Notes under the pieces: generated by a model
The model's database searches: none
What the model saw: the letters and a program-made list of their open reading frames with translations, nothing else
What the model was told of the DNA's origin: nothing
Shown here: positions 14,488-63,655 of the stretch, one piece after another
Layout: each line of letters starts with the position of its first letter
Position numbering within the stretch: the stretch's first letter is position 1
Source of the DNA: Haliclona indistincta
Taxonomy: Eukaryota > Porifera > Demospongiae > Haplosclerida > Chalinidae
DNA length: 64,000 nt
Direction: 5' to 3'
NCBI GenBank assembly: GCA_964017065.1
Contig: OZ024785.1
Span: 7,935,672-7,999,671, forward strand
Program-made: the position numbers and the translations under genes

Positions 14488-17400
14488 ATGTATTGTAACA
14501 CTGTGCTAGTCAATGTAGTTCAGCTACTGATGATGATGATATCAACTAACACTGCTGAGTTAACAATCAAAGCTACACGTGATGTCCTGGTTAATAATAT
14601 GATTCGCTTGACTTGTCACTTTGATGATAGTCATGATACCACAGCAGCCTTCTATCGCAGAGTTCCACAAGATGGGAGAGAACTACTTATTGACTCAAAT
14701 GTTCGTAATGTGGAATTTGTGATCACGATCCACACAGAAGGTGCCTATTTTTGTAACAGCTCAGTTGGTCAGTCTACTAATTTTGAAGAAATAAACAGTA
14801 AGCTTTTCCCAGGGGGTACCAGAAAGAAAAATTACCGACCCCAGGCCAAAAAGTGGGTGGGTGGGTTGAGAGGGTTCTTACATAAAAAGTCGTTTTGCGT
14901 AAATTTTAGCCACTATATTTCTGGTGCTCTGTATAGCTGTTTTACAGGTTCTTGACATCAGAAGAGGTCTATATCATGCAGACATGATGTAGTGTGTATA
15001 TACATGCACTGTAAAATGCAGGTGACATTATGCTGTGAAGGGTGTGGACTGGAGGCGTGGCTAGCATAATGCAAGCAAAGCAGCTGCTTCTGAGCCAGGC
15101 AGTTTTACTCACCAGCTTCTGCAGTAGATTCAGCTACACTCAGCTCTTGAGTGTTGTTCTTCCGTCGAAAGAAGCTATCTAATCGTGGAGTTTTAGCAGC
15201 ATCGGGTGCGTTTTCGCGACGAGCACTCTCTGAAACGTGATAGTCGCTTAACGATCTTGGCCACGTTCACAGCGGTAGCGCAGTCGCGTTCTGATCTCTG
15301 CTTGCTGCACCAATGTTCTGCATGATCGCGATCGATACTACACTCGCGCTATCGACTCATCCGCGCGATCGACGACGAGCTACGTCTACGGGGACGCGAT
15401 CGTCAGCTGTTCATGAATATTAATTAGTTTGCATTGTGAATCTCATTATGACGTAGTGGATGGGTAAAAAACGGCCTGGGGTCGAAAATTTCCGCCACTG
15501 GCACCTCTGGCTTTTTCTATACATTTTCCTGCAAAACTTTATTGTATTTTCTCAGCATTCCCTTCACGTATACCTGATCTAGTCCCTTCACCTGGTACAG
15601 TGGGAATCCCTTACACAGCAGATTGCCAATACCAGATTGGTCTCCTCAGTCAATACTACTCCATGACATGGACTGTCGAGTTTAGTGACAATAGTCAACT
15701 ACTCATTGATTCTAACACAACTGATTATCAACTGATTGGTTCATCACTGAGAATAGCAACCTTCACTCCTTTGATTCGGTCACTGGTATGCAATCTAACA
15801 GTTACTGGTGTGCCTCGATTCCAAGGACAGAATGTGGTGACACAAACTGGTTTTCTTGGGAATATCGGTGTGCAACAAGGTTAATACAACCATTAGCAAG
15901 ATACTATTACTTTATCATTGATTCCTAGGTGTATTTATATCACAGCCTCCACAAGACTATACAGCATCGGTGGGAAGTAGTGCTGTGTTCCGATGCACTG
16001 CTCATGGTACAAACCAACAAACAATTGGATTTGAAATATTCAGCAAGAACATCACAACTGATGAGAATAATTGTATCACTAATTTCTCCATCAGAACTTG
16101 CAACAGAGTCATTGAGTCTCATCTTGTGAGTCTCACTTGTGACTACAGTATTGAATACCAAATCAACTGTATACTAAGTGTGGACAGCGTGTCAAGATCC
16201 AGTGATGTGTTCTGTAGAGTACTGAACCAGTCTACTGTAGAGGCAACGGAGACAGCTGAGCTGATGGTTGTGAGTGGAATAGAATCATCACAAGGTCATT
16301 GCACATACATGTACAATGTATTAATCTGATGGTGGATAGTGAGTGGGAGGTGAATATATTTAATAGTGGTTCGTTTATGTCAACTTGGAAAGGCATTAGA
16401 TAAAGTGATATTCCTTTTTAACATTTGACCTTTGGCAATCTCTGCATGTTAGTTAAAATTCCTCTTGGCACTCCTCTTTGTTCTGCACCAGTGCCAGAGA
16501 TGCGGCCAGTCAGTTGATTCTTTTGGCAGACATGGTTTAAGCTGCAGAAAGAGTGAGGGTAGACACTCGAGGCATGCCGCCCTTAATAACGTCATCTTCA
16601 GATCGCTTTCCTCTGCAAACATTCCCTCCCGCTTAGAACCCCCTGGTTTGTCCAGAGTGGATGGCAAACGTCCTGATGGGATATCCATCATCCCTTGGTC
16701 TTCTGGAAAGCCTCTAGTTTGGGATGCCACTTGTATCGACACCTATGCACCATCCTATCAGAGTTTGGCTGCCCATGCACCTGGTGTTGTAGCTGCCAGA
16801 GCTGAGTCTCAAAAGCTGGAGAAATATGCAAATTTGTCCCATTCACACTTTTTTACCCCTATTGCTATCGAGACAACTGGTGTGCTTGGTCCCAAAACTT
16901 TTTCTTTCATTAGAGACCTCGCTAGAAGAATTACCCTGCAATCAGGCGACCCTAAATCCACTGCTTACCTCTTTCAGAGACTATCGATGGCGGTACAGTT
17001 GGGGAATGCAGTTTCGATCATGGGGTCCTGGCAGTGTCATTTCCCTGCCGCTCTGTGACTGACTACCTTTTTGGACTTTGCATTATTTGTTTATTATTAA
17101 AATAATAATGTACAAATGTACAAGTTGTTAAAGTTCAGCCAACAAAGAGTCTTGAATCATGTATAGTGAAAGGAAACATGTAAATAGCTTGTTGTATTTG
17201 CAATAAATCAACCATAAGAGTTCGTTACCTAAGAGTATGCAACCGTCAATATACCCGTTGGACAGGACAGCATTGGGCATTTTCTAAGTTTATACAGCAG
17301 AAAGCGGTAGGGCTGCAATGCTAATGATATTCACAACAGTAGTAATGATAATCATCACTGTGTATACATGTAGGTAAGCTTGTGACGTAGAAAATGTCTA

Positions 17401-19033
17401 ACACAGGCCAATGGGCTATATTGATGGTTGCATACTCTTAGGTAATGAACCCTTGACCATAACTTTTGAGCTATAAACATGATTAAAGTTTCAAATTCCT
17501 TATAATCTGAACTTTACATGAGAACAATTTTGAGTTTTGATAAAACTCTGGCTGCAGGAATTTTAATACCTAGACAAGAAGATCTTCAGAAAAGTTTAAA
17601 TTGCCAGCAATGGTAAAACTTTATGATGTCATAAATATTAACTCATGAACACAGCTTTTAAAACCAACAGTAATTTGACAGCTACCTGTGCTACTTGTAT
17701 CCGCATTTAGTTTTAATCAAATGACGCAGAATGCTAGCTGGCAGCAGCCAGACTAACACACACACACACATACACACCTGTATGCACCATACGTCTCGTG
17801 ACTCGGCCCACTGAGGTAATGAGCATCCGTGTGGCAAGTATAAATGTGCATTTCATCATTAAGAAGGTGAAATAAAATTGGAACCAAAATGTATTATTTC
17901 ATGCAGGTTCAGAAATCAAGTCTTCTTTCATGCAAGGTAAACAGTGCAACTGAGTGGTGCCAATATGAGTATGAGACTGAGTTATGAGCCCAAACAATTG
18001 TGCAATGGTGCCTAGGATGTGTTCGGAGAAGAACACTAGTTCTGGCTGGAGATATTATAGTTTTCATTTTTTTCAGGTGTAACATCAACTGAGGTAATCA
18101 TGACAACTCAAACACCTGGTCCAGGTATCAAGTCTTCTTCCATACAAGGTAAACAGGTAAAAAGAGTCACTCTGAGCGCATGAGAAACAGTACATGCATG
18201 TGTCATAAGTTCATTTGGGTACTGCTTGAAAATTGCTGCAAATTAAGTGCTCAAGAGAGTCTTCAAATCAGTCTACAACAAAGCAATGAGCCTGAGCCAG
18301 TTCAAGCAAGACACTGGTAAAATGCTTACCAAAACTCTTAACCTCATCTCTGAAGAATGTGGGGACAAATTTATAAACATTTTATATCTTCAGTTCAGAC
18401 AAATTAATTTCTAATTTAATTTCAGATTTTTGTTGGTCCCAATGGTGTCCGCCTTAGAGAGGTTCCACTGTATAAGCTTTTATTCATCTAAAACTGACCA
18501 AATTGCTTCTTTATATCAAAATAAGCATTCCTTGGTACCAAATGAACTACGATGCACTTTACAAAAAGAGTACATGTACCTCCTCAATTATTTACACCTT
18601 CCTTTCTACAACAGAGGCAACTCAAACAGCAGTTCCAACAAACAATCTCATTCAAGCTATATTATGGTAAGTCAGTATTATGACCACTGTGTATATGATA
18701 TAGACTGTGAGTACAGGAATGGGAACTGTAACTGTCATCTGTGTTGTGATTTCTATATTTCTTGTCATGCTAATGGTGGCTGTGTTATGTCACCATAAGC
18801 AAGGCAGACAGAAAGTTAACAGACAACAAGAATATACTTATGAGTACATAGAGCAACTGTCACCACACCGACCACCCTCTCCTCCTCCACTTCCACCTGC
18901 ACGACTAACCACTTACGACAATCCTGCCTATGAGAGATTTTCACTAAATGACTGTGTAGCATACTCAAGTGGATTGAATCAAGATCAACAAACAGAACTA
19001 CAAACACTATCACATACTGTCACTTCTGTATAA
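14488..19033 (+). CDS. IgR1: three-Ig transmembrane receptor with NPAY tail
   Basis: Exons: 14488-14797 (signal peptide and Ig1), 15556-15879 (Ig2), 15929-16294 (Ig3), stalk exons 17907-17936 and 18077-18148, a questionable stalk exon 18615-18666, and 18717-19033 (TM and tail). All introns are phase 1. Ig1 has LTCHF...YFCNSS, Ig2 ADCQYQIG...MTWTVEF...LVCNLTV, Ig3 VFRCTA...INCILSV. The last exon has a ~22-residue membrane segment, basic HHKQGRQK stop-transfer, TYEY, PPSPPPLPPARL, DNPAYERF and AYSSGLNQDQQTEL. This implies a cell-surface receptor recruiting SH3 and PTB/SH2 adaptors; the ligand is unknown. The 52-nt stalk exon is one base longer than its IgR2 homologue and breaks frame, so it must be skipped for a full tail. 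Introns 1 and 3 carry a DNA transposon and a LINE fragment. I started at the second ATG-like codon because it is conserved in all copies. Confidence 0.75.
14809..15510. mobile_element. TIR element in IgR1 intron 1, ~700 bp
   Basis: The same intron in IgR3/IgR5 is about 56 bases long. The extra 702 bp here start CCAGGGGGTACCAG and end with the inverted, imperfect CTGGCACCTCTGG. A CTTTTC-like short repeat flanks each side. Subterminal inverted GACCCCAGGCC blocks reinforce the pairing. It is non-coding. Confidence 0.7.
16461..17120 (+). mobile_element. 5'-truncated LINE ORF2 C-terminus
   Basis: An open frame from about 16465 to 17058 encodes ~197 residues. It has a C-x2-C...H...C zinc-finger-like start (CQRCGQSVDSFGRHGLSC), a PD-x(12)-D-like stretch (KRPDGISII...VWDATCIDTYAPSY) and a C-terminal block (FFTPIAIETTGVLGPKTFSF...QRLSMAVQLGNAVSIMG). 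This arrangement occurs at the C-terminus of non-LTR retrotransposon polymerases with restriction-like endonucleases (family assignment inferred). No polymerase core is present. IgR2 lacks the insert at the same intron position, which fixes the borders to within a few bases. Confidence 0.7.
17219..17452. mobile_element. Short TIR MITE in IgR1, ~234 bp
   Basis: Inverted ends of about 30 bp (TTCGTTACCTAAGAGTATGC... near 17220 and its complement near 17450) enclose the element. ACCATAA occurs on both sides and only once in IgR2, consistent with a 7-8 bp target duplication. Related partial sequences occur at about 24660-24750 and 57640-57775. Confidence 0.65.
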
Positions 19034-19504: not shown

Positions 19505-19864
19505 GGTACAAAATTGTATACCATGCTGTATACAAACAGCAAATCCACAAACAACTCTAAACATCAGTATTCCTCTTGCAGCATGGAGGTTAGTCATTCA
19601 CAGTGATATTGCACAAACTGTGTGTGTAACTTTGCAGGAATGGCTGCAGCAACAATTGTCATCTTCATTGTAAGTTTTATTTTTTTTGTCATACTACTGG
19701 TAGCTGTGGTACATCACAACCATGGCGGACAGAGAACCAAACAAAACGGACATATTTATGAATACACAATGACATTTCTCCTCCTCAACTCCCACCTCTA
19801 TGACATGAAAATCCTGCATGCTTATGAGAAAATTGAACTAAATGACTGTAGCTTATTCAAATGA
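19505..19864 (+). pseudogene. Extra, degenerate stalk + TM/tail exon downstream of IgR1
   Basis: A second TM/tail exon (19638-19864, acceptor TTTGCAG) lies 0.6 kb after the IgR1 stop. It is open: GMAAATIVIFIVSF then a long hydrophobic run, HHNHGGQRTKQNG, IYEYT, then diverges. The proline-rich part is gone, NPAYERF is reduced to HAYEKIEL and the end is NDCSLF. A stalk relic (about 19540-19587) precedes it but ends in the wrong phase. It could act as an alternative 3' exon for IgR1, because the acceptor phase matches, but more likely it is the remnant of a lost receptor. The IgR0 relic near 13100-13260 is its closest relative in the window. Confidence 0.6.
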
Positions 19865-21194: not shown

Positions 21195-23951
21195 ATGCAT
21201 TTTAACACTGTGCTAGTCGCTGTAGTTCAGCTACTGATGACGATGATATCAACTAACACTGCTCAGTTAACCATCATAGCTACACGTGATGTCATGGATA
21301 ATAATATCATTCGTTTGACTTGTAGCTTTAGCCACCTTGGTACAGCGGATAATGTCCCAGCAGCCTTCTATCGCAGAGTTCCACAAGATGGGAGACAAAT
21401 ACTTATCAACTCAAATGTTGTTAATGTGGAGTTTGTGATCACAATCTATGAAGAGGGTACTTACTTCTGTACAAAATGTTGGATCCAATCAAATTTTCTA
21501 GAAGTAAATGGTAATAATTTTATTATTAATTTTAATATTATTATTCTATTGCTGTTCTATGTTATACAGCATTCCCGCCTTCAAGTAATATACCTGATCT
21601 AGTCCCTTCACCTGGTATAGTGGGAATTCCTTACACAGCAGAGTGCCAATACAAGATTGGTCTCCTCAGTCAATACTACTCCATGACCTGGATTATTCTT
21701 TTTAGTAATGGCACCAATATTAATATTAATTCTAACACAACTGAATATCAACTCATTGGTTCATCACTGAGAATAGCAAAATTCACTCATTTGATTCAGT
21801 CACTAGTGTGTACACTAAGAGTTACTGGTGTGCCTCCATTCCAAGGACAAGCTGGAAATGTGGCTACACGAACTGGTTTTCTTCTGAATATTGATCCGCA
21901 ACAAGGTATATCAGTATCATGTTAATAGCTAGTCATTATTCTATGTTTTCAGGTAGTCTAATCACACAGCCTCCTCAAGACCATACAGCAACTGTGGGAA
22001 GTAGTGCTGTGTTCAAATGCACTATTCGTGTTCCAAACCTACGCACAATTGGTTTCAAAATATTTGGAGAGAACATTACAACTGCTTACAATAATTGTAC
22101 CACTAATTCTTCGATCAGAATTTGTAACAGAATCATTGACTCTCATCTTGTGAGTCTCATTTGTGACTACAGTATTGACTACCAAATCAACTGTACACTA
22201 AGTGTGGACAATGTGTCAAGATCCAGTGATGTGTTCTGTAGAGTACTAAACCAGTCTACTGTAGAGGCAACGGAGAGAGCTGAGCTGATGGTTGTGAGTG
22301 GAATAGAATCATCACAAGGTCATCATTACACATACAATAGTGACTTGTTTATGTCAATAACTTGGAAAGGCATTAGATAAAGTGATATTCGTTTTTAGCA
22401 TTTGACCTTTGGCAATCTCTGCATGTTAATTAAAATTCCTTCTTATCAGAGTTTCGTCAAAAGAACAAGTTGTTAAAGCTCAGCCAACAAAGAGTCTATG
22501 GCTAAAGGAAACTCATTGTATTTGCAACCATAACTTTTGAGCTATAAACACGATTAAAGTTTCAAATTCCTTATAAGCTGAGCTTTAACATGAGAAACAT
22601 TTTGAGTTTTGATGAAACTCTGGCTGCTGAAATTTAACACCTAGCTAAGAAGATCTTCAGAAAGTCTAGAAATTGTAAAAACTTTATGATGCCATAAATA
22701 CAAATTATAAAAACATTTTAACCAAAATGGAAGAGATTTGGGGTTGGTACATTTATCGAAAAAGTATGGAATACAGCAAGTATGGAGGTGAAATAAAATT
22801 AGAATCAAAATGATTGTATTGTTTCATGCAGCTTTAAGATCAATCATGGAAACTCAAACATCTGGTTCAGAAATCAAGTCTTCTTTCATGCAAGGTAAAC
22901 AGTACAACTGAGTAGTGCCTTAACAATATGAGACTGAGTTATGAGCCCAAACAATTGTGCAATGGTGCCTAGGATGTGTTTGGATAAGAACAATATTTCC
23001 GGCTGGAGAAATAACAACTCAAATACCTGGTCCAGGTATCAAGTCTTCCTCCATACAAGGTAAACAGGTAAAAAGAGTCACTCTGAGCGCATGAGAAACA
23101 GTACATGCATGTGTCATAAGTTCACTTTGGGTACTGCTTGAAAATTGCTGCAAATTAACTGCTCAAGAGAGTCTTCAGATCAGTCTACAACAAAGCTTAA
23201 TGAGTCTGAGCAAGACACTGGTAAAATGCTTACTAAAACTCTTATCCTTATCTCTGAAGAACGTGGGGACAAGTTTATAAACATTTTATATCTTCAGTTC
23301 AGACAAATTTAATTTCTAATTTCAAATTTAATTTCAGATTTTTGTTGGTTCCAATGGTGTCCGCCTTAGAGAGGTTCCACTCTATAAGCTTTTATTCATC
23401 TAAAACTGACCAAATTGCTTCTTTATATCAAAATAAGCATTCCTTGGTACCAAATGAACTACGATGCGCTTTACACAGAGTGCCTAGTTTGCCTCCTCAA
23501 TTATTTACACCTTCCTTTCTACAACAGAGGCAACTCAAACAGCAGTTCCACCAAACAATCTCATTGGAGCTATGTATGGTAAGTCAGTATTATGAGATCA
23601 CTGTGTATATGATATAAACTGTGTGTAATAGGAATGGGAGCTGTAATTGGCATCTTTATTTTGATTTTTATATTTCTTGTCATACTAATTGTGGCTATGC
23701 TATGTCACCAGAAGCAAGGCAGACAGAAAGTTAACGGACAACAAGAATGTACTTATGAGTACATAGTGCAACTGTCACCACAACAACCACCACCCTCTCC
23801 TCCTCCACTCCCACCTGCACGACTAACCACTCATGACAATCCTGCCTATGAGAGATTTTCACTAAATGACTGTGTAGCTTACTCAAGTGGATTGAATCAA
23901 GATCAACAACTAGAACTACAAACACTATCACACACTGTCACTTCTGTATAA
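21195..23951 (+). CDS. IgR2: three-Ig transmembrane receptor with NPAY tail
   Basis: Exons: 21195-21510 (signal peptide MHFNTVLVAVVQLL, Ig1), 21570-21905 (Ig2), 21953-22318 (Ig3), stalk 22832-22894 and 23528-23578, TM/tail 23632-23951. All are phase 1 and the full set is in frame. A further stalk exon seen in IgR1 has lost its acceptor here; a shorter one (23036-23059) could be used instead. The end of Ig1 differs from the family: YFCTKCWIQSNF replaces YFCNSSVGQSNF, adding a cysteine. The tail has TYEY, PPPSPPPLPPARL, DNPAYERF and AYSSGLNQDQQLEL, and with IgR1 forms a subtype (KQGRQKVN juxtamembrane). It is a cell-surface receptor by architecture; ligand and signalling output are inferred only from the motifs. 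Confidence 0.85.
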
Positions 23952-24339: not shown

Positions 24340-26900
24340 ATGAAAATTGTATTTTTAAAGAATCAAGGATCAAAGTATATGGGTGTGGCTAAATAGTTAC
24401 GACATGCTATGCACTATGTGTTGCACGTCATACAAAAGAGGATTTAATTTATTCAGCTTCAATTTGATATTTTTAGTTTGCTAATAGGACAAAATATAAC
24501 AAAGATATATAGTTAAACAGCAAGCACATGTAGTAAGAAATATTGTCGAAAATGCAAATGAGGGTTAAAAAACCATACAAGGTATCAAGCTGAAACTTGT
24601 TATGGAATCATAATTATGTTTCAAGAAAATCCCAGAGGGTCTAGGTAAACAGACCCCAGAGGGTCTGTGTATAGGTAAACTTGTGACTAGAAAATGTCCA
24701 ATGCAGTCAAACGGAGCATAATATTGACGGTTGCATACTCTTGAACTCTTGCTCTAATACAAAACATACAACAATGCATCAGAAGAGAAAGCCAGTTTAT
24801 AAACCTACACACATTGTTTACAAAAACCAGTGAAACTATAGAGTACAAAGCGTTTCATTATCAGTTTTACTGCAGGTCGTGTAGATAGTGATTTACGTAT
24901 GATGCATTGTAACACTGTGCTAGTCACTGTAGTTCAGCTACTGATGATGATGATATCAACTAGCACTGCTCAGTTAACTATTGCAGCTCTACGTGATGCT
25001 CTCAATAACAACATGATTACCTTGGCTTGTAGAACTGATATGAACAACATAGATACCACAGCAGCTTTCTATCGCAGAGTTCCACAAGATGGGAGAGAAA
25101 TACTTATTAACTCAAATGTTGGTAATGTGGAGTTTGTGATCACAATCAATACAGAAGGTACCTATTTTTGTAACAGCTCACTTGGTCAGTCTAATTTTCA
25201 AGAAATAAACAGTAAGCTTTTCTATACGTTTTTCTGCAAAATTGTATTCTTTATTGTATACTCTCAGCATTCCCTTCAAGTATACCTAATCTAGTCCCTT
25301 CACCTGGTACATGGGGACAACCTTATACAGCAGAATGCCAATACCAGATTGGTCTACTCAGTCAATACTACTCCATGACATGGACTATCGTTTTTAGTGA
25401 CAATAGTCAACTGCTCATTGATTCTAACACAACTGATTACCAACTCATTGGTTCATCACTGAGGATAGCAACCTTCACTCCTTTGATTCAGTCACTGGTG
25501 TGTAGACTAACAGTTACTGGTGTACCACTCTTTCAGGGACAAGCTGGAAATTTGGTTACAAAACTCGGTTTTTTGCTAAATATTGGCTTGCTACAAGGTA
25601 TAACCAGCACTATAATGGTCTTGTGCCTGGTATAGTAATGGTATAGACTCTCAGTGCACACATGATTTTGTTTATTTCCAACTGAAAGTATTCCATTTCT
25701 TCTGTATACTTCCATACTACATATGACAGCAAAGTGATTGAGCCTCTCATATAGATGTAGTTTGAAAATGCTATCGCTTTAGAGCTTGGAAGATTGACAA
25801 GTAGACATAATTATTTTGATTCCTGTTCATCGTGCAAGTTTTGAGTCACAAACGAGACTCACAAGATGAGAGTATATACTACAAGTTCTATGTGTGCAGA
25901 CAATGTATACAGGGGAGGGACAGGGACAATGCTACATACCATTTGATAAAGTATTCTGATTTTTTAGGTGCAGATAAAACGAACATTACACAGCCTCCTC
26001 AAGACTATACAGCAACTGTGGGAACTAGTGCTGTGTTCCAATGCACTGCTCAAGTTCCAAACCAACGAACAATTCAATTTGAAATGTTTGGCGAGAACAT
26101 CACAACTGATGATAGTAACTGTATCACTACTGGTTTCTCCATTATTCCTATGAGGACTTGTAACAGAGTCATTGAGTCTCATGTTGTGAGTCTCACTTGT
26201 GACTACAGTATTGAATACCAAATCAACTGTACACTAAGTGTGAACAATGTGTCAAGATCCAGTGATGTGTTCTGTAGAGTAATAAACCAGTCTACTGTAG
26301 AGGCAACGGAGAGAGCTGAGCTGATGGTTGTGAGTGAAATAGAATCATCACAAGGTCGCTATTTATTCTTTATCCTAGGCAAGCATGTGGTAATGAGTTA
26401 AAGCTGGTTTACATTATGACGCAAGCCGTGTATGTTAATGGGACACAAATTGTAATCCAGTTGTTCATTTTCTTCTAGACTACCCTTGAAGACTTCCCCC
26501 CATCACTTTGATTTTGTAACTATATGCTATAGCATAATTATAGCCTATAACTAAACTACCGATTAAAAATTATAGAGCATCTATACTAAGTGTAGCACAA
26601 CAACGAGCCTTAGCAAGCACATTAACTACTGCAACACCCAAAGAAGACAAGTTGGTTCACTTGTTTACTGATCAGAAAATTATCAAGATAGTCACAAAGG
26701 AGCATCTTCAACTAAAATTTGACATAAAATAATATTGATAAAAATTAGGGACATTTGTGGCTGAATTTTTCATAAGTGCCAAATGAGTCTATTCAGGCCA
26801 ATCAACATAACTTTTTCAATCAGAAAATCCTAAGCATGGTATATCACATGTAATATCACATGTAAATGGACAGATGGCCCATTCTACTACTCCCTTGAGA
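24340..26900 (+). repeat. Segmental duplication (copy at 57290-59900)
   Basis: The upstream region, three Ig exons and following intron of IgR3 match those of IgR5 almost throughout, including non-coding DNA. The copy at 57290-59900 has the same order. Part of the upstream portion is also present inverted at about 54585-55260. Confidence 0.85.
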
Positions 26901-27662
26901 AAAGCTAGTGCTCTTTCTACAGGAAATATAAGTTGTGTCAAAACTGACATAAGTGACATGAGTACAAGTTTCTGTATTGGCCAGCAGCACCATGTGCTGC
27001 ATTATCTATTACTTTTATAAATTTCCGGTATAGGATCAACTGAAGTATCAGGAGCTGGATCTACTTCCAAGGAAGGTAAAATTAAAAATGTGACAAATTA
27101 ACCAAGTTATAGTCTTTAACAAGTTATAGTCTTTAATCAGGCACTGTATCACTCATGTTCAGTCAAACTCAGACAATGATAGAGTCTGCTTCAGTAGACG
27201 GTAAGAGTAGAAAGTAGTGATTTTGCACTTTTTTCATCAATGACTAGGCACTGCTTCTACTGAAGTATTGGAATACAGTAGCAGCATAGGAACAATTCAA
27301 ACAGGAATTCCAACTCAAAGTATACCTATAGTTGGAGTTTTGTCTGGTAAGTTTTAGTATACAGTGGAAGCCCTCTTAGAGGACACCCCTCATCCCTCTA
27401 TAATGGACACTTACTGAATCCCAAATATAACCCACATAATGTATAATAAACCCCTGACCAGAGGACACCCTCTCTATAATGGTCAATTTTTGTTGGTCCC
27501 AATGGTGTCCACCTTAAAGAGGTCCCACTCTACATAAAGACACGTCCCTTGACAAAGAAGACATGAACTATAGCAATCTCATAGCAGCCAAGACTTAGGA
27601 ATAATCAAGGAGTAATCATTTTTGTACATGCAGGAATCCTGCCTATGAGAGATTTTCACTAA
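24899..27662 (+). CDS. IgR3: three-Ig receptor that has lost its TM and tail
   Basis: Exons: 24899-25211 (signal peptide, Ig1), 25268-25597 (Ig2), 25968-26354 (Ig3), stalk 27034-27075, 27141-27200 and 27248-27346, terminal 27634-27662. All phases agree, giving about 419 residues. The terminal exon keeps the family acceptor (TGCAG) but the TM, juxtamembrane and proline-rich coding sequence is deleted. It joins directly to the NPAY-coding DNA in the wrong frame and stops after about nine residues (ILPMRDFH). The predicted product is therefore three Ig domains plus a Ser/Thr stalk with no membrane anchor. The ectodomain is closest to IgR5 and is not otherwise damaged. It could be a secreted decoy or simply a recent pseudogene. 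Confidence 0.75.
27362..27530. mobile_element. pogo/Tigger-like MITE in last intron of IgR3
   Basis: CAGTGGAA... at the left and ...CCACT(G/C) at the right are inverted, flanked by TA, about 169 bp. Further copies sit at the same place in IgFN-A, IgFN-B and IgR5, so this is an ancestral insertion. CAGTGGAACCTCTC-type ends with TA targets are typical of pogo-like elements. Confidence 0.75.
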
Positions 27663-28910
27663 ATGACTGTGTAATGTAAACTTGCCCTCTGCAAACACAG
27701 AGATCACAAATTTCACATCAATTCACATATGCACAAGAGAGTTTACTTAAACAAATTAAATGTATACTCATCATGCTGCTGGGATTTATTTTTCGTGACA
27801 GATTGCAGCCATAATTATGCTTGTTGCATAGATCTAATAAAAATAATTTTATGTAAGGAGTAGTATGAAATTTGAATCTCTAAGTTGCAGTTCAAAGAGA
27901 ACAATCAGGTACTGCAGGCCCGTGTCCAGGGGTGCATGTGCACCTCCCCAGCTTGCTGTGCTGGCGGCTTTACCGCTGTTAACATGGCATGGCTGACATG
28001 GCTGATAACTGGCTTTGCGTTAGATTACTGACGTACTGGAGGATCAGACAGATGTAAACTAAACTTTTCTCAACTCCATGAATATTAGGCTACTGCTTTC
28101 AATTATATTGTGAACTCATAACAAACACTACTGGGATGGGAGTGACATTATTTTATTGTTCTATTTAGGTGTTATAGTCGAATTCTTTACGTTAGATTAT
28201 TCTGAGATTTTTTAATGCAGTTGATGATTGATTTACAGTTTATGGTCTGTTCTATTGAGTTCAACTACCAACCTCTCTATGTATTCACATACGAGCATGT
28301 AATATGTTCAAAGGATTTTTATTGCAGAAGCTTAGTGATTGATTGTGTTCAAGTGAAAGATTAAGATACATTTTATACATTTTAAAATGATGAATACTCC
28401 TCTCTGATTACCCTGAGTGCAATACCAAGCAAACAAAATGTACAAGTAGCAGTCAATATCCAAAGGAGACAACTGTAGTGCGGCAAATACACTACAGTTA
28501 TTGCATTGCTGCAGGACTGGATCACCTGCAATAAATCATATTTGCGAACACGACATTATAAAGAATTGTTCATGTAGTGCATGATTGTATCTACTTCAAA
28601 CTACAATTTTGAAGTAGTTTTAAAATTATAATAGCGAAGTTGTAAAATTGTATTGGTCACCTAAGCCATGCCTTCTCAAGGAGTGCATTTGATAAAGAAC
28701 TTACTTGATGCAGATCATAGTGTCGTGTGAACTGGCTGGCTGTTTGATAACACTGCGCTCGGTCGTACGCGCACTAGTTCAACAGTTGTTGACATCTGCT
28801 TGTTGTGAAACTGCTGAAATATTGAGGTGAGCATTGCGTTCTTTTCCAATTCCCTCCGGAGAAGCTCTGACCGCACTTTACTTCCAAACATTGCAGCCGA
28901 GGACCTCTTG
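27663..28910. other. 3' flank shared with IgR2/IgR4, no gene
   Basis: After the IgR3 stop the sequence follows the 3' flank of IgR2 (23980-24240) and IgR4 (38690-38935, 41026-41690): the CACAAATTTTACATC tract, then the CAGGTACTGCAGGCCCGTGTCC block, then the stretch ending CATAGTGTCGTGTGAACTGG. It leads into the IgFN-A promoter side. I see no exon in it. Confidence 0.6.
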
Positions 28911-40979: not shown

Positions 40980-40980
<1 letters not shown>

Positions 40981-44327: not shown

Positions 44328-44330
<3 letters not shown>

Positions 44331-44361: not shown

Positions 44362-44364
<3 letters not shown>

Positions 44365-47442: not shown

Positions 47443-47477
<35 letters not shown>

Positions 47478-52300: not shown

Positions 52301-53787
52301 GTGGACCATTTGTTGAGGTAAGCACTAACACCACTGCCCATCACATTTTGATCTATTATTCATTTTGCAGTGGAAGGAGGGAGTGATTAATGGTGACCAA
52401 CGCTCATTTCAAGTGACCAATCTGAATCCAGGTGTCACCTACCGGTTGAGAATGCGGTCAAGGAACATTGCCGGAATGAGTGGAGCATCAAATATTGTAT
52501 CATTCCAGACCTCAACAAGTCGTGAGTACCACCCACACAGCACAGTGCATGCATGATAATTTGGTGGTATGTGAAATAATTATGGACTGTATGAGTGAAC
52601 TCATGCATGCATACATCATGGCCCTGAAGTGATAGTAAAAAATGTGCGCTTTTTCTTATTTTCATCTTCTGTCTCTCGCAGCACCTCAGTTGGAGTTCTT
52701 TAACTACACTGCACTAGAAAATGGTCGTGCGATTCTCTTCCAATGGAGACTGTTGCACAATGGCGGTGCCCCAGTTAGTAGCTTTAGAATCACTCTTCAA
52801 TCTGACAATATGGCTGAGCGGTCTCAAGACCTGAATATCAACGACAACAGAGTACTCATGTCAGGCCTGGAGCCAAATACTACTTACCGAGTCACAGTAA
52901 CATTTAGCAACCAACTGGGAGAAGCTATTCCTATAAATCTGGAAATAACTACACCACAAGGTGAATGGTGAATAAGCACATTGTTTATAGCTACCAGTGC
53001 ATGTGTATAACATAAAAATGTGACAAATTAACCAAGTTATAGTCTTTAATCAGGCACTGCATCACTCATGTTCAGTAAAACTCAGACAATGATAGAATCT
53101 GCTTCAGTAGAAGAGAATGTGGTGATTTTGCAATGTTTTCATCAATGATTAGGTACAGTATTGGAATACAGTAGCAGCATAGGAACAATTCAAACAGGAA
53201 TTCCAACTCAAAGTATACCTATAGTTGGAGTTTTGTCTGGTAAGTTTTAGTATACAGTGGAACCCCTCTTAGAGGACACCCCTCATCCCTCTATAATAGA
53301 CACTTACTGAATCCCAAATATAACCCACATATTGTATAATAAACCCCTGACCAGAGGACACCCTCTCTATAAAGGGAGATTTCGTTGGTCCCAATGGTGT
53401 CCACCTTAGAGAGGTTCCACTGTACATAGAAGCAGTCTCGTAGCAGCCAAGGCTTAGGAATATAGTAATCATTATGTACATGCAGGAATATCTGCTGTAA
53501 TTATTATCTTCATTGCAAGTTCTATGGCGGTCCTACTGGTGTCTGTGTTATACCATAAGCATGGCAGAAAGATAACCAATAGACAACAAGAGCCAACTTA
53601 TGAATATACAATACCATCTAATCCTCCACAACCATCCTCTCCTCCTCCTCCTCCTCCACTCCCACCTCCACGACTAATTACTCATGACAATCCTGCCTAT
53701 GGGAAATTTTCACTAAATGACTGTGTAGCTTACTCAAGTGGATTGAATCAAGATCAACAACTAGAACAACAAACACTATCACTTTAG
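49302..53787 (+). CDS. IgFN-B: four-Ig, two-FN3 transmembrane receptor with NPAY tail
   Basis: Exons: 49302-49365, 49607-49888, 49942-50065, 50128-50246, 51117-51377, 51819-52115, 52166-52317, 52371-52521, 52682-52960, 53153-53239 and 53486-53787. The frame is intact for about 705 residues: signal peptide 1-21, Ig1 22-115, Ig2 116-196, Ig3 197-283, Ig4 284-382, FN3-1 383-483, FN3-2 484-576, stalk 577-605, TM ~606-627, tail 628-705. The tail has TYEYT, PSSPPPPPPLPPPRL, HDNPAYGKF and NDCVAYSSGLNQDQQLEQ. The Ig+FN3 layout is that of adhesion receptors (NCAM/DCC-like in arrangement only). The 3' module is that of the class-1 receptors. A class-1 stalk exon (from 53054) is present but has lost its donor. 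It is the intact member of the pair with IgFN-A. Confidence 0.92.
50585..51000. repeat. Hairpin MITE-like repeats in IgFN-B intron 5
   Basis: A ~125-bp hairpin (50585-50710; CATGCCTACC...GGTAGGCATG arms, with CCCGAGGG...CCCTCGGG-type centre) is followed by several inverted CCGTGGAATATC/GATATACCACAGG motifs up to about 51000. IgFN-A lacks this in the same intron. Confidence 0.65.
53255..53422. mobile_element. pogo-like MITE in last intron of IgFN-B
   Basis: Same element and position as in IgR3, IgFN-A and IgR5, with TA flanks and CAGTGGAACC/GGTTCCACTG ends. Confidence 0.8.
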
Positions 53788-53936
53788 TGTGAATACTAAA
53801 TTTTAAAAAGTTGTTTTGATAATAATTGATAGCAAAAACATACAGTATATAAGTCATGCTAAAACTGCTACGAAAGTACTTCTAATATGCATATACCCTT
53901 CAGCATACAGGAGCCCACAATAACTAGCTATGCCAG

Positions 53937-54185: not shown

Positions 54186-55316
54186 TGCAGCATCTGTAAA
54201 CAGTGCAGCTACTGATGATCAGTTTGGTTCACCATCTATTCAAGACAGGAATTTTACTCATGCAATCTACTTCACAGTGACAAAGCCTGCCAAGTAGCAA
54301 CCTGGGTGATTCTTTCCTAGACCTGAAAAGCAGTGATGGCGATCAACACACGGATGCACAATAGGCGTGTACCATACTTGCTTCAGCCATGACCAGGTGT
54401 CAATTTAAAACCAGCACGTGTTACACTTATGTGATTCTTACGTCCAGTGTCAAATAATTAAGACAGTTATCTATTAAGAGGAGGGCTTCAATTATAAGAT
54501 TTAAGATAACTTTCTCCAAGGCTGGTGTTATAGCAAACAACAGCTTTCATAAAAGTGTTCTACATAATGGGTCATTCCATATCATTTCAACAACTTTTTG
54601 GCATAACCCTCTGGGATTTTCTCGAAACTTGGTAATGTTGAACCCCTCATGTGGTCATATGAGTCCTTATTACATAGTACGTCATCTTTCACCAATCGGA
54701 TTGCTCTATTCGAGGGCATTAATGTAGGTTATTGACCGCTCGTAGCGTCTTCTATAGCAACAGACCGTTGCGTCTTTGCGAGTTTGAAAAATTCGCGATG
54801 TTATTGCGCTCACAGAGATGAACTATGTAATAAATCATTTATTGCCCTACACAACTCGGGCATTAACCGACATTAATGACCTCGGGAAAGTCAGTTGCCC
54901 TCGTACAGTCTCGGGCTGTGCCCTCGACCGTTACTCGGGCGACCGACTTTCCCGCGGTCATTAATGTCGGTTAATGCCCTCGCGTGAGGGCAATAACTAA
55001 TACATAACAAGTTTCAGCTTAATACCTTGTATGGTTTCTTTTAAAACCCTGATTGCATTTTTGACAATATTCCCTACTACTTGCCGTTCAGCTATTTAGT
55101 TATATTTTGACCTATTAGCAGACTAATAACATCAAATTGAAGCTGAATAAATGCTCTTTCGCATGACATGCAACACATAGTGCATCGCATGTCATAACTA
55201 TTTAGCCACACCCACATACCTTGATACTTGATTCTTTAAAAATACGCTGTGTCAATTTCACTTTAAATGGATATCAGAACATGCAAAATGATCACTAGCT
55301 AGTTTATTAGGGAGGC
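54186..55316. other. Intergenic: inverted piece of the IgR3/IgR5 upstream region with an insert
   Basis: About 54585-54640 and 55010-55260 are the reverse complement of the IgR5 upstream segment (57290-57605). They are separated by ~370 bp of a palindrome-rich insert containing CGAGGGCATTAATG and its complement CATTAATGTCGG...GCCCTCG. 54186-54580 shows nothing I can name. No exon is seen. Confidence 0.55.
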
Positions 55317-56447
55317 ACGGTAGTGCCTCCCTATGTAGGGTTGAACGAGAAAAAAAGATGGCGGCTACATACAATGTATTAGCGTTCAAACGCTGATATT
55401 TCGCCTGGTGATGAATTTTATACGTCAAAAGACACTTAGATCTGCTCTCTGGCGTTGCCCCATCTTACAGTAGCAAGGAGATTGCTCGAAATTGTTGCTA
55501 AAGTGACGAACCTGGAAACGGTGAAAATCGAGTTTCGTCATCTTCTTCTTTCTTCCACTCGCCTAGCACCTTTACGCGAGCAGTACCGGGACCAAAATAC
55601 CCACGAACAGTCGTGAAATTCTCCTGGCATGTGCCTTTTGAACTTAGTTTTTAGCGAAACGGCGATATAAATTCCGCGATTTCTCGATTGTGATCCATTG
55701 TCAGCTAAGTGTTAGACGCCATTAATGTGATTGCGCAATACGCACGTGACCAAGCAGTGGTTAGCGTATGGTTCACGGAGAACACATATCTGTATGGAGT
55801 CTTCGAAGAACGGCAAGCTATAGGATCACCATTCTGCGCTTGCCAGATATAAATTATAACCGTAGTACTGCAGTACAGGTAAATAAACTAGTGTGGGCGG
55901 GGCTCGTATGCACTGCATGCATGCATGCGTAGGCGAGCTGATAGCATAGCATAACAATTATTTTTTGCTACAAGTTTAAAGTAAAGAAAAGCCATCAACA
56001 ACAAGAAACTAAACCAATGGTGGAACAAAGACGGCTCAGTACGTCCATGATAATTGAACTGCACTTCACTAAAAAAGTAAAAAGGACACAAACAAGAAAA
56101 TTAAAAAGATTTCTATCGAAATCAAAAGGATGTAGGGTTGTGAAATCTACCACTGGTTCACAATGTAAACTAACAAGGAACAAGCATGGAATGGTAACAC
56201 AATTGACTTGCTAACAGACCATAGATCCCTACATCAGTGGCTGTACACAAGCTGAATGCACATCAGGTGTCAGCAGTCAACAAGTAGGTCAACCACACCA
56301 GCCACTGATGTAGGATCTATGGTCTGTTAGCAAGTCAATTGTGTTACCATTCCATGCTTGTTCCTTGTTAGTTTACATTGTGAACCAGTGGTAGATTTCA
56401 CAACCCTACATCCTTTTGATTTCGATAGAAATGTTTTTAATTTTCTT
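55317..56447 (-). mobile_element. Helitron-like element, copy 3 (minus strand)
   Basis: Reverse-oriented homologue of 34919-36119. On the minus strand it ends with the GGGAGGCAC...GTGCCTCCC hairpin, CTAA, then T. The other end lies near 56447. The long palindrome occupies 56094-56447. Confidence 0.65.
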
Positions 56448-57920: not shown

Positions 57921-60900
57921 ATGATGCATTGTAACACTGTGCTAGTCACTGTAGTTCAGCTACTAATGATGATGATATCAACTAGCACTGCTCAGTTAAC
58001 TATTGCAGCTCTACGTGATGCTCTCAATAACAACATGATTAACTTGGCTTGTAGAACTGATATGAACAACATTGATACCACAGCAGCTTTCTATCGCAGA
58101 GTTCCACAAGATGGGAAAGAACTACTTATTAACTCAAATTCTGGTAATGTGGAGTTTGTGATCACAATCAATACAGAAGGTGCCTATTTTTGTAACAGCT
58201 CAATTGGTCAGTCTAATTTTCAAGAAATAAACAGTAAGCTTTTTCTATACATTTTCTGCAAAATTGTATTCTTTATTGTATACTCTCAGCATTCCCTTCA
58301 AGTATACCTAATTTAATCCCTTCACCTGGTACATGGGGACAACCTTATACAGCAGAGTGCCAATATCAATTTGGTCTACTCAGTCAATACTACTCCATGA
58401 CCTGGACTATTGTTTTCAGTGACAGTAGTCAACTGCTCATTGATTCTAACACAACTGATTACCAACTCATTGGTTCATCACTGAGGATAGCAACCTTCAC
58501 TCCTTTGATTCAGTCACTGGTGTGCAGACTAACAGTTACTGGTGTGCCACTCTTTCAGGGACAAGCTGGAAATTTGGTTACAAAACTCGGTTTTTTGCTA
58601 AATATTGGCTTGTTACAAGGTATAACCAGCACTATGGTCTCGTCCCTGGTATAGTAATAGTATAGACTCTCTGCACACACATAATTTTTTTAATTTCCCA
58701 ACTTAAAGTATTCTATTTCTTCTAATTATGACAGCAAAGTGATTGAGCCTCTCATACATGTAGTTTGAAAATGCTATTGGTTTAGAGCTGTAGTCTTTGG
58801 CATGTAGCTTGGAAGATTGACAAGTAAACAGATTTTGACTCCTGCATGATCATCGTGCAAGTTTGAGCCACAAGTGAGACTTGCAAGATGAGAGTACTAC
58901 AAGTTCTATGTGTGCAGACAATGTATACAGGGGAGGGACAGAGACAATGCTAAGTTGTACACATACCATTTGATAAAAGTATTCTGATTTTTAGGTGCAG
59001 ATAAAACAAACATTACACAGCCTCCTCAAGACTATACAGCATCTGTGGGAACTAGTGCTGTGTTCCAATGCACTGCTCAAGTTCCAAACCAACGAACGAT
59101 TGAATTTGAAATATTCGGCGAAAACATCGCAACTGATGATAGTAACTGTATCACTACTGGTTTCTCCATCATTCCTATGAGGACTTGTAACAGAATCATT
59201 GACACTTATCTTGTGAGTCTCACTTGTGACTACAGTATTGAATACCAAATCAACTGTACACTAAGTGTGGACAATGTGACAAGATCCAGTGATGTGTTCT
59301 GTAGAGTACTAAACCAGTCTACTGTAGAGGCAACGGAGAGAGCTGAGCTGATGGTTGTGAGTGGAATAGAATCATCACAAGGTCGCTATTTATTCTTTAT
59401 CCTAGGCATGCATGTGGTAACCCGTGAGTTAAAGCTGGTTTACATTATGACGCAAGCCGTGTATGTTAATGGGACACAAATTGTAATCCAGTCGTTTATG
59501 TTCTACTAGACTAGCTACCCTTGAAGACTCCCTCCCATCACTTTGATTTTGTAACTATGTGCTATAACCTATAGCATTATAACTAAACTGCTGATTAAAA
59601 ATTACAGAGCATCTATAGCTAAGTGTAGCACAACAACGAGCCTTAGCAAGCACATTAACTACTGCAACACATGAAGAAATCTAGTTGGTTCATCAGAAAA
59701 TTATCAAGATAGTCACAAAGGAGCATCTTCGACTAAACTTAGATGTAAAATAATTGATAAAAATTATAGGGATAATAAAGTGACTGCATTTTTTATAAGT
59801 GCCAAATGAGTCTATTCAGACCAATCAACATAACTTTTTCAATCAGAAAATCATAAGCATGGTTATATCACATGTAAATGGACAGATGGCCCATTCTACT
59901 AAGCTGCATTATCTATTACTTTTAGGTATAGGATCAACTGAAGTACTTGAATTAAGCAAAACTAAGTCTGGAGCTGGATCTACTTCCAAGCAAGGTAGAA
60001 TTAAAAATGTGACAAATTAACCAAGTTATAGTCTTTAATCAGGCACTGTATCACTCATGTTCAGTAAAATTCAGACAATGATAGAGTCTGCTTCAGTAGA
60101 AGGTACATAAACCTCATTGCATGCGATATAGTGCATTATTGCATCGCTATAGATACTCTTGATACTCCTTCTACTTCAGTAGAAGGTAAGAGTAGAATGT
60201 GGTGATTTCGAAATGTTTTTCATCAATGACTAGGCACTGCTTCTACTGAAGTATTGGAATACAGTAGCAGCATAGGAGCAATTCAAACAGGAATACCAAC
60301 TCATAGTATACCTATAGTTGGAGTTTTGTCAGGTAAGTTTTAGTAAACAGTGGAACTTCTCTTAGAGGACACCCCTCATCCCTCTATAATGGAGACTTAC
60401 TGAATCCCAAATAATATTATAACCCGCATATTGTATAATAAACCCCAGACCAGAGGACACCCTCTCTATAATAGACAATTTTAGTTGGTTCCAATGGTGT
60501 CCATCTTGGAGAGGTTCCACTGTACATAAAGACGTGTCCCTTGCTAACAAGAAGACATGAACTAGCAGTCTCATAGCAACCAAGGCTTAGTAATAATATA
60601 GTAATCATTTTTGTACATGCAGGAATGTCTGCTGTAATTACCATCTTCATTGCAAGTTCTATGATCCTTGTCATACTACTGGTGTCTGTGTTATACCATA
60701 AGCATGGCAGACAGATAACCAATAGACAACAGGAGCCTACTTATGAATACACAATACCATCTAATCCTCCACAACCACCCTCTCCTCCTCCTCCTCCTCC
60801 TCCTCCTCCACTCCCACCTCCACGACTAACTACCAGTGACAATCCTGCCTATGAGAGATTTTCACTAAATGACTGTGTAGCTTACTCAAGTGGATTGAAT

Positions 60901-60954
60901 CAAGATCAACAACTAGAACTACCAACACTATCACACACTGTCACTTCTGTATAG
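57921..60954 (+). CDS. IgR5: three-Ig transmembrane receptor with NPAY tail
   Basis: Exons: 57921-58233 (signal peptide, Ig1), 58290-58619 (Ig2), 58995-59381 (Ig3), stalk 59926-59994, 60043-60102, 60153-60185 and 60234-60332, TM/tail 60623-60954. All are phase 1, about 540 residues. The ectodomain is nearly that of IgR3, but the 3' module is complete. The tail has YHKHGRQITN, TYEYT, a long PPSPPPPPPPPPLPPPRL, DNPAYERF and AYSSGLNQDQQLEL. The small stalk exon 60153-60185 and the intron before it (60103-60152) match the IgFN exon-6/7 intron and first bases of the FN3 exon (33491-33546), a chimeric join. The 3' flank matches that of IgFN-A. IgR5 therefore looks assembled by recombination between class-1 and class-2 genes. 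Confidence 0.88.
60348..60522. mobile_element. pogo-like MITE in last intron of IgR5
   Basis: Same element and position as in IgR3 and both IgFN genes; the left flank has changed from TA to AA. Confidence 0.8.
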
Positions 60955-61271
60955 ACTCAGTTTTAATATTACCGCTAATTTCTGCAAGAGATCAAAATTA
61001 GTATTGTTATGATTTGGAGTAATTGCAAATACCGAGTTCTATTGTGGTTCATACTGTGGACAAACCGTCAGAAGTAGCTGACATCATGCAAAAAAAAACA
61101 ACTACCCAACTCCAAGACTACTCATGCAATCCTGCTAGTAAGAAAATTGAGATTATCAATTAATTAGGCTATTGTATGTGTGTAGAGGACAGAGATGCAA
61201 GTGAACATGTAGTGATAGTAATTATTATTGTTGTGACTCAGACAGTCATAACAAAACTACTAGTGAGTGGA

Positions 61272-61375
61272 TAATTTAATAATATATGTGCAAATAATTA
61301 ATTTAATAATATATGTGCAAATAATTTAATAATAATATATGTGCAAATAATTTAATAATATATGTGCAAATAAGG
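61272..61375 (+). repeat. AT-rich tandem repeat upstream of IgR6
   Basis: Four copies of a ~25-bp unit containing ATATGTGCAAATAA; three copies precede IgR4 at the matching place. Confidence 0.75.
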
Positions 61376-61508
61376 GCAAGACTATACAACCTTAATATGA
61401 CAAACAATTTGAAGACCTATAGTATACTACTCTCCCGGTACAGTGTATAGTAGTCCTCGATCGCTGATCAAGACAACAATTGTGTTGTGGATAGACTGTG
61501 TGATTGTT

Positions 61509-63655
61509 ATGTATTGTAACACTGGGCTAGTCACTGTAGTTCAGCTACTGATGATGATGATATCAACTAGCACTGCTGAGTTAACAATCATAGTTTCTCG
61601 TGATGTCATGGATAATAATATCATTCACTTGACTTGTAGCTTTAGTCATCTTGGTACAGCGGATAATGTCACAGCAGCCTTCTATCGCAGAGTTCCACAA
61701 GATGGGATAGAACTACTTATTAACTCAAATGTTAGTAATGTCAAATTTTCAATCACGATCCACACAGAAGGTGCTTACTTCTGTAACAGCTCTGTGGGAC
61801 AATCTAATTTTCAAGATATAAACGGTATTTAATACATCTTTTATTTAACATTTTGATTGTTTTTCTTTGCTATACAGCATTCCCTTCAAGTACACCTGAT
61901 CTAGTCCCTTCACCTGGTACAGTGGGAATCCCTTACACAGCAGAATGCCAATACCAGATTGGTCTCCTCAGTCAATACTACTCCATGACATGGACTGTCA
62001 TTTTTAGCGACAATGGTCAAGTGCCCATTGATTCTAACACAATTATGGAATATCAACTGATTGGTTCATCACTGAGAATAGCAACCTTCACTTCTTTGAT
62101 TCGGTCACTGGTGTGCAATCTAACAGTTACTGGTGTGCCTCGATTCCAAGGACAGAACATGGTTACACGAACTGGTTTTCTTCGGAATATCGGTGTGAAA
62201 CAAGGTTAAATACAACCAGTAGCAAGATACTAATACTTTATTATTGGTTCCTAGATGTATTTATATCAGAGCCTCCTCAAGACTATACAGCAACGGTGGG
62301 AAGTAGGGCTGTGTTCCGATGCACTGTTCGTGGTACAAACAAACTATCAATTGGATTTGAAATATTCAGCAAGAACATCACAACTGATGATAATACCTGT
62401 ATCGCTAGTTTCTCTATTGTAATTTGTAACACAGTCATTGACTCTCATCTTGTGAGTCTCACTTGTGACTTCAGTATTGAAAACCAAATCAACTGTACAC
62501 TAACTGTGGACAGCGTGTCAAGATCCAGTGATGTGTACTTCAGACTACTAAACAAGACTTTGGCATCAGTAGAGGCAACGAGGAGAGCTGAGCTGATTTT
62601 AGAAAGAATTCAACCTACAGCACAAGGTAGGGGACTGTGGATACCATAGAGCCAGTATTTTTGCAGTGCAAAATTTTTACTTAATGGTAACAAGTCTGCG
62701 ATTGTGACGAGCACAATACAAAAATAAATATCATGAATTGTTTTGTTCACGAAATTTAAAAGTGCAAAAGAAACCAGCCCTACAAAATATGCTTATACTA
62801 CTCGAGGAACAGTACTTACAGAATGCCCCATTGCGGCTTCAATTGGTAAAGACTTTCAAAGTTTGCAGATACCATTTAGACTTTGGCATCAGCTTTGTGC
62901 CCTACATACATGTAGTCACGTCCAGAACTAAAATTTACTAAATAATGTAATTAATTTGTCATTCAATTTCCACAAAAATCATAACGTAACAAAACATGAT
63001 AATTATGTGACAAGTACAATCTTGTGAGAAGGTTAATCATTTGTGCAGATCCAGGCAATGTCGACAACATGCCATCACTGAAACTTTTAAGGCTGGAATC
63101 AAGTCTGGAGGTATTATCATTGCCGATCGGCAATGATATGTAGGGATAACATCGAATTAAGAATTAAGATGACTGCTATTCATGAGTGAAAATGAGTTTT
63201 CACACATATCTCTATTGTTACATAGGCAGTGCTTCAATATCTAGCAGTACAGTAGCAAGTCAACCAGGAGTTCCAGTCCCAATTGCTGTTGAAATCACGT
63301 ATGGTAAGTCAGTGTAACACACACCTATAAGCATAATAACTTGGTGTGTTATGCAGGAATGGCTGCTGTAATTACCATCTTTATTGCAATTTGTACATTT
63401 CTTGTTGTACTACTGGTGGCTGTGTCATATTATAAGCATTGCCAACGGACAGTCAGTTGGCAACAAGAGCCTACCTACGAATACACATGCTCTGATTTAC
63501 AACCTTCAACTCCACAACCACCCTCTCCTCCTCCTCCTCCACTCCCACCTCCACGACTAATCACTCACGACAATCCTGCCTATGAGAGATTTTCACTAAA
63601 TGACTATGTAGCTTACTCAAGTAGATTGAATCAAGATCAACAAACAGAACTCTAA
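61509..63655 (+). CDS. IgR6: three-Ig transmembrane receptor with NPAY tail
   Basis: Exons: 61509-61824 (signal peptide, Ig1), 61878-62204 (Ig2), 62255-62626 (Ig3), a damaged stalk exon 63049-63110, stalk 63226-63303, TM/tail 63357-63655. The damaged stalk exon is 62 nt against 72 nt in IgR4 (a 10-bp deletion) and would shift the frame. Leaving it out restores one frame of about 463 residues. In Ig3 the stretch VFCRLLNQSTV of IgR4 reads VYFRLLNKTLASV, losing a cysteine and gaining three residues. The tail matches IgR4 except NDYVAYSSRL for NDCVAYSSGL. IgR4 and IgR6 are the products of a block duplication that includes about 200 bp upstream and both flanks. Confidence 0.85.

Follow-up and report, generated by a model that had tools for sequence, protein, structure and literature searches.

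A sponge receptor gene cluster in which Ig-FN3 genes share transmembrane and tail exons with their neighbours

The stretch described here (the window) comprises 64,000 nucleotides of the sponge Haliclona indistincta (assembly GCA_964017065.1, a 144-Mb genome in 46 contigs; contig OZ024785.1, herein C3, positions 7935672-7999671). It contains a cluster of eight receptor genes of two classes, IgR1-6 with the ectodomain exons Ig1 to Ig3, and the immunoglobulin (Ig)-FN3 genes FN-A and FN-B, which share a 3' module of stalk, transmembrane (TM), and tail. The gene labels are not in map order, IgR5 being the fourth and IgR4 the fifth of the IgR genes, and IgR7 and IgR8 are located just beyond the window end. 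The guanine-cytosine content ranges from 35.5 to 43.5% (per 4-kb segment). The genes are arranged as follows.

14488-19032, + strand: IgR1, with signal peptide and Ig1 from 14488, Ig2 at 15553-15881, Ig3 at 15935-16294, and TM/tail exon at 18717-19032
19616-19863, + strand: degenerate second TM/tail copy (IYEYT... HAYEKIELNDC), immediately 3' of the IgR1 tail
21195-23951, + strand: IgR2, with TM/tail exon at 23632-23951
24899-27690, + strand: IgR3, with the stalk exon kept (27248-27346) and an internal deletion in the last exon
29578-34640, + strand: FN-A, with four Ig and one FN3 (by FN-B homology), without the FN3-2 exon
33955-34047 and from 34333, + strand: stalk and TM/tail exons of FN-A, with a frameshift past NPAY
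36388-38504, + strand: IgR5, with stalk exon at 38075-38152 and TM/tail at 38206-38504
49302-53788, + strand: FN-B, 11 exons, 705 amino acids: signal peptide, four Ig, two FN3, stalk, TM, tail
53486-53788, + strand: TM/tail exon of FN-B, with the motifs YEY, PPLPPPRL, NPAY, and SLNDCVAYSSGLNQDQQ
57921-60954, + strand: IgR4, 8 exons, 540 amino acids, every intron in phase 1, TM/tail at 60623-60954
61509-63655, + strand: IgR6, with TM/tail at 63357-63655

IgR4 and FN-B were modeled in full. In both, a hydrophobic start and a TM segment are visible by eye and all introns around the join are in phase 1; the FN-B frame is open across all 11 exons. Compared with Pfam as a whole, the FN-B model matches Ig_3 (102.3 bits, cut-off 30, three stretches), I-set (88.7 bits, cut-off 23.7, two stretches), and fn3 (69.6 bits, cut-off 25, two stretches), which places its ectodomain among Ig-domain proteins; the count of four Ig domains follows exon position and inspection by eye, Pfam having returned three Ig_3 stretches. 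A preliminary description of the cluster had given both FN genes four Ig domains plus FN3, which holds for FN-B with two FN3 domains and, by homology, for FN-A with one. Its statements on the phase-1 introns agree with the full models and those on the tail motifs (YEY type, PPxPPPRL, and NPAY) with the FN-B tail, and the 3' module it described in both classes is real, except that the last exon of IgR3 has lost the TM and has a short end and that the FN-A tail is frameshifted. The whole IgR4 protein has no homologue at E<=1e-3 among 7999 candidates scored, and a PDB sequence search with the tail and Ig exons gave no match under E 0.01. The predicted structure of the second IgR exon is of low confidence (pLDDT, the predicted local distance difference test, of 47), and the third IgR exon has no Foldseek match at E<=0.001.

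A close relative of the FN ectodomain is found outside the window on the same contig. The third Ig exon of FN-B has 12 matches in the genome, namely FN-A, FN-B, FN-C (C3:7820259, 97%), FN-D (C3:7833442, 44%), and eight weaker ones at 31-39%; FN-C and FN-D are both located on the minus strand. FN-C (examined over C3:7812300-7824400) and FN-B are 92-98% identical in nine ectodomain exons, from the signal peptide through FN3-2. The shared stretch begins 204 bases 5' of the ATG in FN-B, and for FN-C against FN-A it begins 349 bases upstream in FN-C coordinates. The DNA homology between FN-C and FN-B stops eight bases past the FN3-2 exon, and neither the stalk nor the TM/tail exon of FN-B has a BLAST match in FN-C. 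Instead, FN-C has one more exon and then a TM and tail of its own, the tail being unlike that of FN-B; for both the additional exon and the tail, the single genome match at E<=0.001 is FN-C itself. By eye the exon looks like a third FN3 domain; neither it nor the tail reaches any Pfam family at E<=0.01.

From the joint onward, FN-B resembles the IgR genes. The features that define this region are the following.

52961-53012, + strand: fusion joint in FN-B, with FN-C homology to 52968 and IgR4 intron-4 homology from ~53010
53153-53239, + strand: FN-B stalk exon, without a difference from IgR3 in 83 aligned bases and with no match in FN-C
53254-53427, + strand: element resembling a miniature inverted-repeat transposable element (MITE) in the stalk-TM intron of FN-B, with ends CAGTGGAAC / GTTCCACTG and TA flanks
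33885-33954, + strand: deletion joint in FN-A, the FN3-1 donor being joined to the FN-B-type post-FN3-2 intron over a TACCA microhomology (by eye)

The sequence of FN-B from ~53010 is IgR3/IgR4 intron. Its stalk exon is 96% identical to that of IgR4 and its TM/tail exon 90%, whereas the FN-B ectodomain exons show no DNA match to IgR3 or IgR4. As DNA query, the stalk exon has five genome matches, all within the cluster. In an intron alignment of the eight window genes, IgR3, IgR4, FN-A, and FN-B carry the MITE-like element at the same site of the intron, whereas this intron in IgR1, IgR2, IgR5, and IgR6 measures 50-53 bases and lacks it. The element is repetitive, with at least 43 genome matches (40 of 942 candidates scored). 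By eye, the 3' end of this element is also seen at ~18440-18475 and 23345-23385, upstream of the IgR1 and IgR2 stalks and in a different place from that in IgR3, IgR4, and the FN genes.

FN-A and FN-B are 96% identical over 33051-33906 and 83.6% over the 3' part; the post-joint sequence is common to both, and FN3-2 is absent from FN-A. FN-D (C3:7831942-7835157) shares 309 bases with FN-A, FN-B, and FN-C at 96-98%, corresponding to the Ig4 exon and about six bases on each side. Among the other FN-B exons tested, it shows only an 80-base FN3-1 match at 79-81%; the comparison covered 3.2 kb, and little weight attaches to the lack of matches in its outer exons. Within 100 kb of the two FN genes found beyond the cluster (at C3:7.82 and 7.83 Mb), there is no tail-module match.

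FN-B resembles one gene before and another after a joint that lies in an intron of matching phase, which is the pattern of an exon-shuffled chimeric gene. FN-A and FN-B appear, on their sequences, to be chimeras at the level of DNA, and the evidence concerns DNA rearrangement, not splicing between classes. It is highly probable that an FN-C-type ectodomain was copied to the IgR cluster and fused in a phase-1 intron to 3' exons of the IgR3/IgR4 lineage. Module shuffling, as proposed in the preliminary description, is strongly supported: each parent still has a close relative, FN-C with its own end and IgR3/IgR4 with the borrowed one, and the position of the joint is known to within ~42 bases.

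Separate trees of tail and ectodomain exons disagree in their branching. The tail tree (module D by its 3' piece only; IgR3 and the degenerate tail at 19616 left out) joins IgR1 and IgR2 (100/99), IgR5-8 (99/97), and IgR4 with FN-A, FN-B, and modules C and D (98/96), herein FN-A with FN-B (91/90). The Ig1 tree places IgR1 with IgR3/4 and IgR2 with IgR5-8 (each 100/99), and the approximately unbiased (AU) test rejects IgR1+IgR2 (p=0.002). Ig2 and Ig3 together place IgR1 with IgR5-8 and IgR2 with IgR3/4 (each 97/97), with p=0.0498 for IgR1+IgR2. The preliminary description had proposed this comparison; IgR1 and IgR2 are joined by their tails and split by Ig1.

Several observations weigh against the chimera. 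The AU test does not reject an IgR-only tail clade (p=0.158, tail exon alone), so that it is the joint, FN-C, and the intron element in common that carry the case. At the joint, ~42 bases resemble neither parent. Broken 3' ends occur in two of the eight window genes (IgR3 and FN-A), and the ratio of nonsynonymous to synonymous substitution rates (dN/dS, FN-A and IgR7-8 left out) is 0.56-1.21 for the tail (8 pairs), no lower than the 0.09-1.57 of the ectodomain exons (21 comparisons), so that purifying selection does not appear any stronger on the tail. IgR4 itself contains a piece of an FN gene, which means that traffic went both ways and that the direction of transfer is uncertain.

This piece also bears on gene conversion or concerted evolution, by which FN-A and FN-B would have received the NPAY tail long ago and the 3' ends of neighbors would have been homogenized later. 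Such a history is possible, if the less expected one: besides the 73-base FN piece inside IgR4, it would account for the mosaic IgR1 and IgR2, whose Ig1, Ig2-3, and tail yield different trees, and for the clade of FN-A and FN-B tails. It still requires the original capture because FN-C ends differently, and the sharp joint at 52968-53010 resembles a single breakpoint. Gene conversion can coexist with the chimera.

The preliminary description had favored alternative 3' exons, one gene being spliced to the tail of a neighbor. The phase-1 introns around the join would permit this, and ectodomain-less 3' modules follow IgR6 and IgR7, as the degenerate second tail follows IgR1. It is nevertheless unlikely, as IgR4 and FN-B each close with a tail exon of their own whose splice ends are normal, so that read-through splicing is not needed. 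Common descent of IgR and IgFN genes from one tail-bearing ancestor, with diverged ectodomains and a swapped tail in FN-C, agrees with the Ig-like exons with phase-1 borders in both classes and with the IgR-only tail clade mentioned above. However, intron sequence and transposon insertion are ~90% alike in IgR3/IgR4 and the FN genes and not in IgR1, 2, 5, and 6, and of the FN genes found outside the cluster neither is near the tail. Since the stalk identical to IgR3 stands in one gene beside an ectodomain without DNA match to IgR3 or IgR4, extreme divergence would adjoin near-identity, which makes descent alone hard to accept and very improbable. An assembly artefact, in which collapsed or misjoined haplotypes produced the chimeras, is suggested by a 200-N gap and a 1.3-kb perfect inverted repeat in 43002-48807, ending ~4 kb before the FN-B joint, but hardly credible given that FN-A and FN-B, separate loci with shared ectodomain exons 2-7% apart, share the post-joint filler.

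In addition to the fusion that we prefer as the origin of FN-A and FN-B, the cluster shows traces of further recombination.

60588-64000 and past the window end, + strand: tandem duplication unit, 60588-64256 being repeated at 64262-67950 with 94.7% identity
60096-60168, + strand: FN-gene piece in the stalk region of IgR4, comprising Ig4/FN3-1 intron and FN3-1 start (89% over 73 bases, E 6e-21)
12497-13263, + strand: remnant of a further IgR gene, with an orphan Ig3 piece (12497-12853) and a piece at 13090-13263

At its end the tandem unit holds the beginning of a 3' module that has no ectodomain of its own. Four units of an FN-type 3' module and an IgR5-type gene begin at ~33949, 60170, 64059, and 67752. 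The FN-A ectodomain stands before the first unit and that of IgR4 before the second, whereas the third and fourth have no visible ectodomain of their own. The FN piece in IgR4 overlaps the mini-exon 60153-60185, and shorter or weaker copies are present in module C (65 bases, 89%) and module D (74 columns, 82%). In the remnant, the piece 13090-13263 matches 19528-19701, the start of the degenerate tail copy. A repeated element of ~1.2 kb is observed at 34918-36121, 41732-43006, and 55305-56447 (the third inverted), and its first copy splits the duplicated unit between FN-A and IgR5.

The tail family extends over the genome. Two tail queries gave 66 and 63 matches, which merge to 48 tail-like exons on C1, C3, C4, C5, C7, C9, and C10, some partial or with stops; 11 are located inside the cluster and 37 outside. 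An AG acceptor in phase-1 register precedes the TM shortly at all 22 other loci examined (a lenient test). On the same strand upstream of a tail, VWA (143 bits), I-set (54.9), and fn3 (34.4) are found at C7:963-968 kb, Fz (88.8 bits) at C5:7.0 Mb, SRCR (42.8 bits) at C4:2.98 Mb before a diverged tail (CPAY), and Ig_3 (47.2 bits) with an EGF match under its cut-off at C9:8.34 Mb; a DOMON match at C5:7.59 Mb stays under the cut-off (28.5 versus 32.7). An open reading frame (ORF) at C3:2.5 Mb that is FN3-like by eye has no Pfam match. At C7:2580089-2583328 (minus strand), a Cys-rich ORF, Ly6/uPAR-like by eye with no Pfam family above its cut-off, lies ~0.5 kb before a tail exon. At C7:962231-963100, six tandem PPxLPxxR-NPAY matches occur in one 306-residue frame, behind the VWA, Ig, and FN3 exons.

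For the outside tails, with neighbor distances picked after the data were seen, an IgR-type Ig3 match lies within 5 kb upstream of 11 of 37 (0.013 expected) and an ig-family match within 5 kb of 2 of 37 (0.096 expected). The ten strongest Fz exons lie within 5 kb of 1 of 37 (0.006 expected) and within 7.5 kb of 2 of 37 (0.01 expected). By eye, the best 150 of 2225 fn3 candidates include none closer than 10 kb to an outside tail exon, and neither, among the matches listed, do the best 150 of 1669 SRCR candidates. As the strongest fn3 and SRCR matches are not near outside tails, these lists give the genome-wide interpretation no support. The neighbor cases are not independent, because the tails are related, and adjacency, often with unclear donor phases of the neighbors, is not proof of one gene. 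The tail profile matches 22 proteins in other assemblies (8000 candidates scored), some of which look to be from the same species. With the chances about evenly balanced, the phase-1 TM/tail exon may be a genome-wide plug-in output cassette, spread through DNA rearrangement behind many ectodomains (IgR, Ig-FN3, VWA-Ig-FN3, Fz, Ig-EGF-like, and SRCR, perhaps DOMON and Ly6-like), with its PPxLPxxR-NPAY part repeated at some loci, up to six times.

In an alignment of 13 divergent tails chosen from the 48, the positions Y-x-Y, PPxLPxxR, T, NPAY, C, and AYS are invariant. By pattern, NPxY is present in all 13, PxxPxR in seven, and a single YxxI/L/V in eight. Neither an immunoreceptor tyrosine-based inhibitory motif (ITIM; S/I/V/L/T-x-Y-x-x-I/V/L) nor an activation motif (ITAM; two YxxI/L 6-12 apart) is present in any of the 13. 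The invariant motif positions argue for strong constraint on the tail, and dN/dS against it. SH2 and PTB domains bind at tyrosines and SH3 domains at proline motifs. Judged by its motifs, the tail may be a docking platform for SH2/PTB at the tyrosines and for SH3 at PPxLPxxR.

Among known systems, KIR and LILR are tandem Ig receptor genes with exchange between paralogues and ITIM/ITAM or adaptor-paired tails, unlike the tails found here. The transmembrane adaptor SCIMP is a small membrane-spanning protein that carries tyrosines along with a proline-rich motif, whereas the module described here terminates a receptor. The SCIMP profile (Pfam PF15050) matches 3 of the 13 tails at E<=0.01, and membership was rejected, the best tail scoring 25.4 bits (E 2e-5) under the cut-off of 27. 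Among the CEACAM1-related genes of the dog, the exons for the TM and the cytoplasmic part have been exchanged as one, within a single Ig family and with ITIM and ITAM tails (PMC2110893). For FN-A and FN-B, in contrast, the tail appears to have been taken up by an Ig-FN3 gene that belongs to a different family, and FN-C persists with a TM and tail of its own. The Hydractinia Alr family, with 41 members of the Ig superfamily (PMC11999971), is similar in being an invertebrate Ig-domain gene cluster, and the Ig-like adhesion molecule of Geodia cydonium (PMC11999971) is similar as an Ig-like membrane protein of a sponge. A literature search, with most subscription journals outside its reach, recognized no published shared tail of this kind.

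A perfect 1.3-kb inverted repeat (43002-44301 and 47508-48807), with a further 610-base arm pair at 99%, flanks tandem 102-base repeats and the 200-N gap at 45886-46085; it is either a recent palindrome or an assembly artefact. Collagen-like ORFs are present on the + strand at 7015-7779, above the Pfam collagen cut-off, and at 9147-9917; 1369 of 2262 candidates are related to the latter at E<=1e-20. They sit among minus-strand ORFs that are adenylating/reductase-like by eye. The first 5006 bases hold three copies of ~1-1.8 kb, 79-86% alike (5-1836, 2184-3947, and 3940-5006).

Within the proposed fusion history, an FN-C-type ectodomain cassette, reaching from at least ~200 bases 5' of the ATG to the end of the FN3-2 exon, would have entered the IgR cluster as a copy and been fused, with the junction in a phase-1 intron, to stalk, TM, and tail exons from the IgR3/IgR4 lineage, probably by ectopic recombination in a repeat-rich intron zone. 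The fused gene would then have been duplicated to give FN-A and FN-B, FN-A would have dropped the FN3-2 exon by microhomology deletion, and its tail would have decayed. The ectodomain-less 3' modules next to IgR5-type genes would stem from tandem duplication whose breakpoints lay close to the same introns. The fusion probably yields a membrane receptor with an FN-C-type recognition surface and IgR-tail signaling, in which phosphorylated tyrosines in YxY, NPAY, and AYS would bind SH2/PTB and PPxLPxxR would bind SH3. The joint, FN-C, the shared introns, the phases, the open frames, and the incongruent trees are observed; the direction of transfer, expression, and all signaling steps are inferred.

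Two genes joined within introns of the same phase thereby appear to have given rise to a new receptor gene. The cluster would show how a receptor class came into being in an early-branching animal, a single chromosome still holding the joint and near relatives of the two parents. If the cassette interpretation is true, many unrelated surface sensors would feed one signaling route, and the number of repeats would set the strength. Should the tail family indeed serve as a common output module, one rearrangement could add a new recognition surface to an existing route, an addition that would resemble engineered chimeric receptors.

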